A DNA stretch of 64,000 nucleotides from positions 1 to 64,000 of the forward strand of contig DVJY01000071.1 of NCBI GenBank assembly GCA_018716485.1. Direction: 5' to 3'. Below are positions 3,861 to 51,403 of this stretch, in pieces; position 1 is the stretch's first letter; every line of letters starts with the position of its first letter. Source of the stretch: Candidatus Scybalocola faecipullorum (GTDB lineage Bacteria > Bacillota > Clostridia > Lachnospirales > Lachnospiraceae). Both the position numbers and the translations under genes were made by a program. A model generated the notes under the pieces. The model was not told where the DNA came from and ran no database searches. It was given only the letters and a program-made list of their open reading frames with translations.

Positions 3861-3889
3861 AAAAAAAGAGCAGCATATCCATGCTGCCC
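3861..3889 (-). terminator. Intrinsic terminator of the ZTP riboswitch
   Basis: In the transcript GGGCAGCAU pairs with AUGCUGCUC (9 pairs, one G-U) across a GGAU loop, followed by seven U (3861-3867). The 5' arm uses the GGGCA of the aptamer's 3' domain (3885-3889), so terminator and ligand-bound aptamer should be mutually exclusive. Confidence 0.85.
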
Positions 3890-3975
3890 AGACGGTCGGC
3901 TTTTCAAAATGATAACTCCACTGTGTCTATCCACATCTCTGCCCTGCAGAGTTTCCGTCAGGAATTATCATCCTT
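3885..3975 (-). promoter_or_regulatory. ZTP riboswitch (pfl motif) controlling pflBA
   Basis: Reading the minus strand, AUGAUAA (3971-3965) pairs with UUAUCAU (3915-3909) to close the first domain. Inside it are the conserved CUGACGG and a CUCUGC-AGG-GCAGAG hairpin. The second domain is GCCGACCGUCUGGGCA (3900-3885), the hallmark 3' domain of the pfl/ZTP class. GACGG and CCGUC are complementary and would form the pseudoknot. A terminator overlaps the 3' domain, so binding of the folate-stress signal ZTP/ZMP should prevent termination and switch the operon on. The class was named after its association with pfl genes; assignment here is by motif and context, not by a model search. Confidence 0.88.
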
Positions 3976-44131: not shown

Positions 44132-44176
44132 AAAAAAAATGGGGAACACCAATTCTCAATTTAATTAGTGCTCCCC
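44132..44176 (-). terminator. Terminator of the free-standing RNA
   Basis: AATTAGTGCTCCCC pairs with GGGGAACACCAATT's partner strand (two imperfect positions) across an 8-base loop, followed by eight T. It ends about 75 bases before the mreB -35 box. Confidence 0.85.
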
Positions 44177-44410
44177 ACTTAGGCTATTTCCTCACTGTGC
44201 ATTGGACTATACCTCTTTTTCAAATTCTCTGTATTTCGTCCTTTGTTTATATCCCTTCCCCGGGATCAGGTCCTGTTATCCATTCGGATAAAAAATTACG
44301 TTGCTGGCGGTTTGTACCTCCTTCTTTAAGATTTCTTTTTTAGAAAAGCTTTAACGTTTTCTAAGACTTTTTTGTACCTCATCTTTCTTATAAAACCTTT
44401 CCTCTTTGAT
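44132..44410 (-). ncRNA. Free-standing structured RNA, ~280 nt, family not recognised
   Basis: A perfect promoter (44417-44445) and a strong terminator delimit a transcript without a convincing coding region. Predicted hairpins in order: TTAGAAAA/TTTTCTAA; GGAGGT-ACAA-ACCGCC, which hides an AGGAGG; TTATCC-GAAT-GGATAA (perfect); ATCCC-GGGGAA-GGGAT; GGAC/GTCC enclosing TAC/GTA; and the terminator. GAGGTACAAA occurs twice. The only short frame, MRYKKVLENVKAFLKKKS, has no good ribosome site. It is not tmRNA, RNase P RNA, SRP RNA or a T-box by the motifs I know; raiA and 6S models should be tried first. The 44446-44583 stretch upstream is AT-rich with nothing I can support. Confidence 0.7.
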
Positions 44411-44416
44411 GGTTCT

Positions 44417-44445
44417 ATTATATCCTCTCGCCTTTTAATTGTCAA
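44417..44445 (-). promoter_or_regulatory. Perfect sigma-A promoter of the free-standing RNA
   Basis: TTGACA (44445-44440), 17-base spacer, TATAAT (44422-44417): consensus at all twelve positions with optimal spacing, implying strong expression. Confidence 0.85.
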
Positions 44446-44583: not shown

Positions 44584-44635
44584 AAGAAAAACATAAGGGT
44601 ACTTCCCTGTATACAGGGCGTATCCTTATGTTTCC
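44584..44635 (-). terminator. Terminator of proS
   Basis: AAACATAAGG pairs with CCTTATGTTT, with inner CCCTG/CAGGG pairing, followed by TTCTTT. It lies about 40 bases after the proS stop. Confidence 0.75.
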
Positions 44636-46126: not shown

Positions 46127-46393
46127 TAAAAAAATTAAAAAGCCCTTTGATCCCTGCCGGATATACTCCGAACCCAAGGGACCAAAAGGCTGTCATATAC
46201 ATCTCTTTCGGCGGTACCACCCTGATTAACTGTACTTACAGTTCACTCGTCTGCCGATAACGCCGGGCTGCGCCGCGCTTTCACACGGAGGCTCCAAGGC
46301 AGGTTCCAAAACTTCCGCGTAAAAACTCTCAGCATATGTTTTCTCTCTGTACCGCTTCCGACTTTGTACTATTCCTCTTCATTGCCGTATTAT
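46127..46393 (-). promoter_or_regulatory. T-box riboswitch (proline) of proS
   Basis: The signature T-box AGGGTGGTACCGCCG lies at 46223-46209. Downstream the antiterminator competes with a terminator in which AGCCTTTTGGTCCCT pairs with AGGGATCAAAGGGCT, followed by T runs (46127-46192). Upstream is a long stem-I region; CCT in the GGAACCTGCC stretch is a plausible proline specifier codon. Uncharged tRNA-Pro should bind and allow readthrough into proS. Confidence 0.9.
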
Positions 46394-50278: not shown

Positions 50279-51199
50279 TCATACGTTAGTATCAAATAAA
50301 TATTGGTCAAAAATTGCTTTTGCTTCGTCCGAAATAATAAATACATAAAATGCGTCGGCAGCTACATTCACCGTCTCATCTGCCTGATCATTTTGGATTC
50401 TGCATACCGGGTAGATCACATTGCCGGTCAGATCATAGCTGACCATCTCAAGAATATCCAGATCATCCTCAAATCCATATGTATCTGAATAATAAACGGT
50501 TCCAACCTCGCATGAACCTTCAATAACTGCTGTCCGAACTTTACTTACGTTTCCCTGTTCGCTGATTTCCACACCGCCGAGGGCGTCGGAAATTTCCTGC
50601 GTCGTAATTGCTGCCGGATCGTCTGTCTCAGGAAGCATACCGGCATTGACCATAGCCTGCCGTGTATATCTGCCTACAGGGACACTGCCGTCAGCCAGCG
50701 CAATGCTTTTGGCATTTCCGATATCTTCCAGTCCTGTCACTGCTGTATCACTGTCTTTATAAGTTACCACACATACCTGATTATTGACAACATCCTTTCT
50801 TGTGCCATCCACGATAAATCCTTTTTCTTCAAGTTCGTTCATCTGTGTCTGCGCTGCAGAGAAGAAAATGTCACACTCAAATCCTTCTTCGATCTGCGTC
50901 ATCAATGTGCCTGAACTATCTGCGTTAAAAAGAATTTCCACATTCGGATAAGTTTCATTAAACGCTGAGGCAACTTCTTCCATGACGTCGCTGAGACTTG
51001 CGGCAATAAATACGTTGATTTCCCCTGCCACTTCACTGCCGTCCTCACTTTCGGCCGCTGTCTGAGCAGTCGTTTCGGTATCCTCTGCCGCCGGAGTTTC
51101 AGTGCTGCTTTGACCTTGTGCATTGTTGCCGCATCCGGCCACCATCGTCAATGTAAGCGCCGCGGTCAGACATGCATTTAAAATTTTTGCCTTTTTCAT
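50279..51199 (-). CDS. modA: Molybdate-binding lipoprotein
   Basis: 306 residues. A lipoprotein signal with lipobox MVAGCGNN puts the mature N-terminus at Cys23, followed by an Ala/Glu/Thr linker. The type II solute-binding domain begins EINVFIAASLSDVMEEVASA, the oxyanion-binding start of ModA proteins, with FNADSSGTLMTQIEEG further on. It captures molybdate or tungstate outside the membrane for ModBC. Translation starts directly after copy 3 of the dispersed leader element. The operon is controlled by a promoter overlapped by a ModE-like operator. Confidence 0.93.
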   Translation of the reverse strand: MKKAKILNACLTAALTLTMVAGCGNNAQGQSSTETPAAEDTETTAQTAAESEDGSEVAGEINVFIAASLSDVMEEVASAFNETYPNVEILFNADSSGTLMTQIEEGFECDIFFSAAQTQMNELEEKGFIVDGTRKDVVNNQVCVVTYKDSDTAVTGLEDIGNAKSIALADGSVPVGRYTRQAMVNAGMLPETDDPAAITTQEISDALGGVEISEQGNVSKVRTAVIEGSCEVGTVYYSDTYGFEDDLDILEMVSYDLTGNVIYPVCRIQNDQADETVNVAADAFYVFIISDEAKAIFDQYLFDTNV

Positions 51200-51374: not shown

Positions 51375-51403
51375 ATTATATTGGAAAATATCGTTATTGT
51401 CAA
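51375..51403 (-). promoter_or_regulatory. Perfect sigma-A promoter of modABC
   Basis: TTGACA (51403-51398), 17-base spacer, TATAAT (51380-51375). Leader to modA is about 170 bases and includes leader element copy 3; I see no molybdenum-cofactor riboswitch in it. Confidence 0.85.

Follow-up and report, generated by a model that had tools for sequence, protein, structure and literature searches.

What is transcribed from the gap between mreB and proS in Candidatus Scybalocola faecipullorum, and does it encode anything? The window analysed here is a stretch of 64,000 nucleotides, and a preliminary description of it had placed in this gap an independent RNA gene of ~280 nt with about six hairpins and no credible ORF. 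The elements of the unit that the following analysis rests on are:

44417..44445, minus strand: promoter TTGACA-N17-TATAAT, perfect consensus (12/12 positions)
44132..44411, minus strand: predicted transcript of ~280 nt (promoter and terminator positions, fold, alignment with the homologue L004)
44371..44394, minus strand: module copy 1, degenerate (AAGAAAGATGAGGTACAAA), as it is in L004 (by sequence)
44295..44333, minus strand: module copy 2, complete (TCTTAAAGAAGGAGGTACAAACCGCCAGCAACGTAA; match to the module model R1 with E 4e-7; folded)
44203..44220, minus strand: module copy 3, the putative ribosome-binding site GAGGTATAGTCCA before the micro-ORF (by sequence and L004 comparison)
44179..44202, minus strand: micro-ORF ATG CAC AGT GAG GAA ATA GCC TAA, MHSEEIA (L004 indel, family-wide tests)
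44132..44180, minus strand: intrinsic terminator, GTGGGGAGCACTAATT...AATTGGTGTTCCCC followed by T8 (by sequence)

The unit between mreB and proS

Both borders proved to be as described. The promoter is perfect, and the terminator consists of an 18-bp stem (44180-44137, minus strand) with a T run to 44132. With up to one mismatch allowed, the 64-kb window contains three TTGACA-N17-TATAAT sites, two of them perfect, where 0.8 are expected. The predicted fold of the RNA beats 200 of 200 shuffled sequences (z = -3.38); the count of about six hairpins is only roughly right. mreB lies downstream in the same orientation and has a separate, weaker promoter-like site at 44056-44028, and a palindrome followed by T, whose pairing is visible in the sequence, stands near 44590-44635 after proS, which agrees with the earlier view that both neighbours have signals of their own. 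The second perfect promoter site in the window (51375-51403, minus strand) precedes a modA-like ORF for a molybdate-binding protein (50279-51199, minus strand) by ~175 nt. The window also holds a T-box leader upstream of proS (Rfam RF00230, 107.6 bits; 46174-46391, minus strand) and a ZMP-ZTP riboswitch barely over the gathering score (3879-3975, minus strand).

Comparison of the unit with Rfam 15 gave no match at gathering score and chance matches alone at E values up to 10. Similarly, 13 homologous loci matched no Rfam model at gathering score, raiA and 6S included, and three homologous loci yielded nothing at a relaxed threshold. A literature search by motif sequence strings and by topic found no description of an RNA of this type. 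Two short motifs show a possible resemblance to known elements, GAGGUAAAGUCC to RNase P CR-I and ACGAGA to the sarcin-ricin loop. Judged from sequence, the window unit is an independently transcribed member of a previously unnamed RNA family.

Homologous units and their surroundings

Homologues were sought in 397 genomes of the same family. Nucleotide searches gave mostly weak matches, several of which became collinear after local realignment. A shared 15-mer, GAGGTACRRACCRCC, was found at 99 places in 89 of the 397 genomes, compared with ~9 places for a reversed control pattern; its matches in coding DNA were similarly few and were taken as chance. About 80 of the matches are genuine homologous units, a degree of conservation in relatives on which the preliminary description had made its case depend, and the window unit is not species noise. 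The nearest relative, L004, is alignable with the window transcript from the 5' end to the terminator stem and likewise adjoins recD2; the window unit with its long 5' hairpin has one close relative only.

To look further afield we used R1, a sequence-only model of the 41-nt module, with copy 2 of the window among its building sequences. In an order-level sample, R1 matched 26 of the 33 genomes from the family, though a few of the matches were weak (as counted among the matches listed); in a set of family genomes picked mostly for absence of the 15-mer, it matched 12 of 38. Outside the family, the order contributed one convincing copy and the class weak matches only. This copy (L264 in genome G607, from another family of the same order) is isolated and carries RBS-like modules; it could reflect horizontal transfer or an ancient member. 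Eighteen matches in viral contigs were rejected as chance coding matches by their context. Save for the one outside copy, the RNA family, which is spread over many related Clostridia of gut type, is probably restricted to one family of Clostridia. From the size of that family and a named relative whose mreB matches at 60% (L041), it is probably Lachnospiraceae.

The homologous units are ~170-800 nt long (median 385 nt in the 75 units with a called terminator) and contain one to eight module copies. An upstream promoter, strong and of constitutive type, is present at most loci, with a score of 12/12 in 47 of 89 units, and a downstream terminator at many. Genomes usually carry a single unit. Two units with different terminal peptides, separate or in tandem, occur at L294/L307 (G035), L295/L308 (G025), L022/L229 (G307), and L234 (G136).

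Adjacent genes vary between genera and are locally constant inside subclades. One subclade has the unit between an aspartokinase gene and a nagZ-like gene; another has a radical-SAM gene downstream on the opposite strand, all three names being our reading of the sequences. We found no consistent regulated downstream gene, since the genes that follow the units are not constant and in many cases point the other way, and a search for mreB-based synteny in named genomes gave no close relatives. Promoter and terminator are kept in dozens of homologues while the neighbours differ, a combination that excludes a general function as leader or trailer and identifies the unit as a putative orphan RNA gene; the neighbour pattern is the one expected for such a gene under vertical inheritance.

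Hairpins, repeated module and terminal micro-ORF

About a quarter of the units contain a hairpin with an invariant UGACGAGAAAG loop, and among the collected loci 26 of 27 matches to this loop fall in units of the family, six of the 26 being members not flagged by our script or duplicate loci. In an alignment of seventeen loop-anchored pieces, all five flanking pairs show double changes, 89% of the cells are paired, and the stem has a covariation score of 0.84, compared with 0.20 after shuffling and at most 0.17 when slid. This hairpin, however, is absent from the window unit, and whole-RNA alifold for two genera yielded few compensatory changes and thus no confident global structure. In L193, L227, and L251 it is the terminator hairpin that bears the UGACGAGAAAG loop, which therefore seems to be a movable element. 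A further hairpin, ~35 nt after the promoter, is found in L199, L217, L238, and L239; its loop reads ACGCGAG and its stem varies (ACAG/CUGU, ACGG/CCGU).

The pattern that led to the homologues was the module GAGGUAC-R-R-ACC-R-CC. Its consensus is AAUCUAAGAAAGGAGGUAC(G/A)GACC(A/G)CC(A/G)AAAC(N)UAA, or in full AAUCUAAGAAAGGAGGUACRGACCACCRAAACNUAA, where the CC(A/G)CC core of internal modules is biased by the starting search pattern. The window has a degenerate copy at 44380, a complete one at 44320, and the terminal one at 44215, and the duplication noted earlier is that of GAGGTACAAA at 44380 and 44320. The AGGAGG said to be hidden in a hairpin is indeed predicted to be sequestered: in copy 2 this Shine-Dalgarno (SD)-like sequence pairs with ACCGCC, and the unpaired probability of GAGG is ~0 at three of four positions. 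The suggested ribosome interaction is plausible because the hidden AGGAGG and the repeated GAGGTAC both belong to a conserved RBS-like module.

In the terminal copy, ATG, TTG, or GTG replaces the CC(A/G) block at an unchanged distance from GAGG. SD and start are separated by UANRGWCC, a spacer that translated and start-less copies share although SD pairing alone would not require it. Several lineages deviate in the SD part (GGAUGG, GGAAGG, GGCAGG), yet GGUACRGWCCA is mostly preserved. Together with the shared spacer, this argues that something reads beyond the SD. Since AAAGG and GGU are still present in the altered forms, they could pair with the 16S tail by way of a bulge, and the 30S subunit stays one of two candidate factors. 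The module could form a small hairpin, GGU-ACRG-ACC (predicted -2 to -5 kcal/mol), which has no covariation support, its core being near-invariant, partly since the core pattern was used to find the units. In L193, L194, L220, L232, L236, L251, and L264, the first module copy contains an ATG that opens an ORF of three codons, in many cases M-x-T, whose stop (TAA, TAG, or TGA) is fixed in position (ATG GGA ACT TAA; ATG AAG ACA TAG; ATG GGC ACA TGA).

The claim that the unit lacks a credible ORF did not survive. Positions 44202-44179 form a conserved acidic micro-ORF that would be driven by the last module and ends at the terminator, its stop coinciding with the terminator base. An in-frame stop at the terminator base, defined as a stop end between -8 and +1 nt relative to the stem's first G-C pair, was present in 55 of 63 units and preceded by no earlier stop, whereas the other two frames gave 17 and 5. 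With identical ORFs removed, the counts were 51 of 59 in frame and 16 and 5 in the other two frames (Fisher p 6e-11 for the comparison with frame +1). The unique ORFs that are well placed, 55 in number, start with ATG (37), TTG (17), or GTG (1), stop at TAA (35), TAG (15), or TGA (5), and use all four codons for Val and six for Ser. Peptides are 5-14 residues long across genera, and length changes by whole codons: MHSEEIA* in the window corresponds to MNEIV* in L004 through a 6-nt in-frame indel, and within genus g231 ORFs of 13 and 14 codons occur with TAA and TAG exchanged.

Composition adds to this signature. D and E make up 35% of the peptide residues and K and R 2%, whereas the composition of the RNAs concerned would predict 10.5% and 24%, respectively; D or E is present in 55 of 55 well-placed unique peptides. 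Genus g177 departs from the rule, with its in-frame stop inside the terminator loop, and a minority of units has another type of terminal ORF or none identifiable. Terminators and starts were assigned with a heuristic terminator finder and a heuristic start-codon choice, and twelve units had no assignable terminal start, in some of them because the wrong terminator was picked. From these frame, codon, and composition patterns we predict with high confidence that the terminal micro-ORF is coding. An independent unit, a repeated module, a coding-like terminal ORF, and one covarying hairpin type make up a sequence-level architecture that is well supported.

Possible functions and comparison with known systems

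The mechanism that we infer from this architecture is that of a regulatory RNA, which we put forward tentatively, as possible rather than probable: start-less operator/RBS copies would titrate a trans-acting factor and the terminal copy would be translated. The module would be a translational operator overlapping an RBS, and upstream copies without a start codon would be decoy sites for whatever recognises GGUANRGWCCA, either an RNA-binding protein or the 30S subunit via an extended SD. The terminal copy would place the micro-ORF under the same factor as the decoys, so that translation at the 3' end could report or feed back on the availability of factor or ribosomes and may affect RNA lifetime. 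With slightly more reserve, the family may represent a new class of ribosome-engaging RNA, never annotated yet common in a large Clostridia family, in which tandem RBS operators lacking a start codon titrate 30S subunits or a translation factor and the terminal acidic micro-ORF, read by ribosomes as far as the terminator, senses the ribosome or factor state. What has gone unannotated in this large family is an RNA gene that is probably strongly transcribed. Its operator/RBS repeats, with a micro-ORF selected for acidity and a stop at the terminator, suggest RNA-based sensing or tuning of translation, and units classed as noncoding can conceal five-codon ORFs whose coding signature is clear.

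The coding signature and strong acidity would also suit a micropeptide gene that makes the acidic peptide and has the long, A-rich, module-bearing 5' part as its regulatory 5' UTR. Although acidity is kept across the peptide classes MDxIV, MIEES, MVEVH, and MEIAEHH, we consider this reading unlikely: the product would be very small, peptide sequence and length (5 to 14 residues) vary between genera, and most of the RNA, including its most conserved part, falls outside the ORF. That the repeats are a ribosome decoy, extended Shine-Dalgarno sequences without start codon that hold 30S and damp translation, is decidedly unlikely in our judgement. The module consensus, UCUAAGAAAGGAGGU, would complement almost the entire 16S 3' tail, as judged from the well-known Firmicutes sequence (the window's assembly contains no 16S gene), and start codons or CCR stand at proper RBS spacing; however, several lineages have a weakened or bulged SD with the remainder of the core in place, and the SD of the window unit is predicted to be paired.

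Ribosomes stall or dissociate when acidic residues that are adjacent or one apart occur early in a peptide (PMC11282234). A ribosome-stability sensor, in which such residues cause pausing or drop-off by MgtL-like intrinsic ribosome destabilisation and so control the RNA, would accord with the peptides found: 26 of 55 unique ones contain a pair of acidic residues within three positions, and all contain at least one such residue. It is weakened by the 29 of 55 peptides without two close acidic residues, and a regulated downstream gene is not consistently present; we hold it to be very doubtful. A leader-peptide ORF followed by a terminator is the classic attenuator layout, and mreB is co-oriented downstream of the unit. 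Control of a downstream gene, here mreB, by attenuation can nevertheless hardly be maintained, and we rejected it on the neighbours: downstream genes differ and are often antisense, as is the conserved opposite-strand radical-SAM gene, rather than being a co-directional regulated gene directly downstream. Moreover, mreB has its own promoter-like site and no alternative antiterminator was seen.

With attenuator leader peptides and MgtL (PMC11282234), the family shares a short ORF, early acidic residues, and a nearby termination signal; it differs in its intrinsic terminator, its repeated modules, and the lack of a consistent regulated downstream gene. The dual-function sRNAs SgrS/SgrT, SR1/SR1P, and RNAIII/hld likewise have an independent promoter and terminator and a small ORF in the RNA, all of which the sequence of the present units provides, the small ORF in conserved form. 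Here, however, the ORF has 5-14 codons and in nearly all cases occupies the very 3' end, its stop lying at the terminator, the RBS-like modules are in tandem, and homology is lacking. Like raiA, ROOL, and OLE, the units are orphan, intergenic, widespread in Clostridia, and transcribed on their own; they have no Rfam match to any of the three, in which such repeats and a micro-ORF are not known. CsrB/RsmZ-type sponge sRNAs similarly carry an RBS-like motif in multiple copies, by which a factor could be titrated. A CsrA sponge, which would have repeated ANGGA motifs in hairpin loops, was rejected on the loop variants: 23 of 83 strict copies are of the ACAGA rather than the ACGGA type, the CsrA ANGGA core is replaced by ACAGA or AAA in about a quarter of the strict-pattern copies, and terminal copies mostly read UANAGU. 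In contrast to these sponges, the conserved element of the present family is GGUANRGWCCA, and its terminal copy is predicted to be translated.
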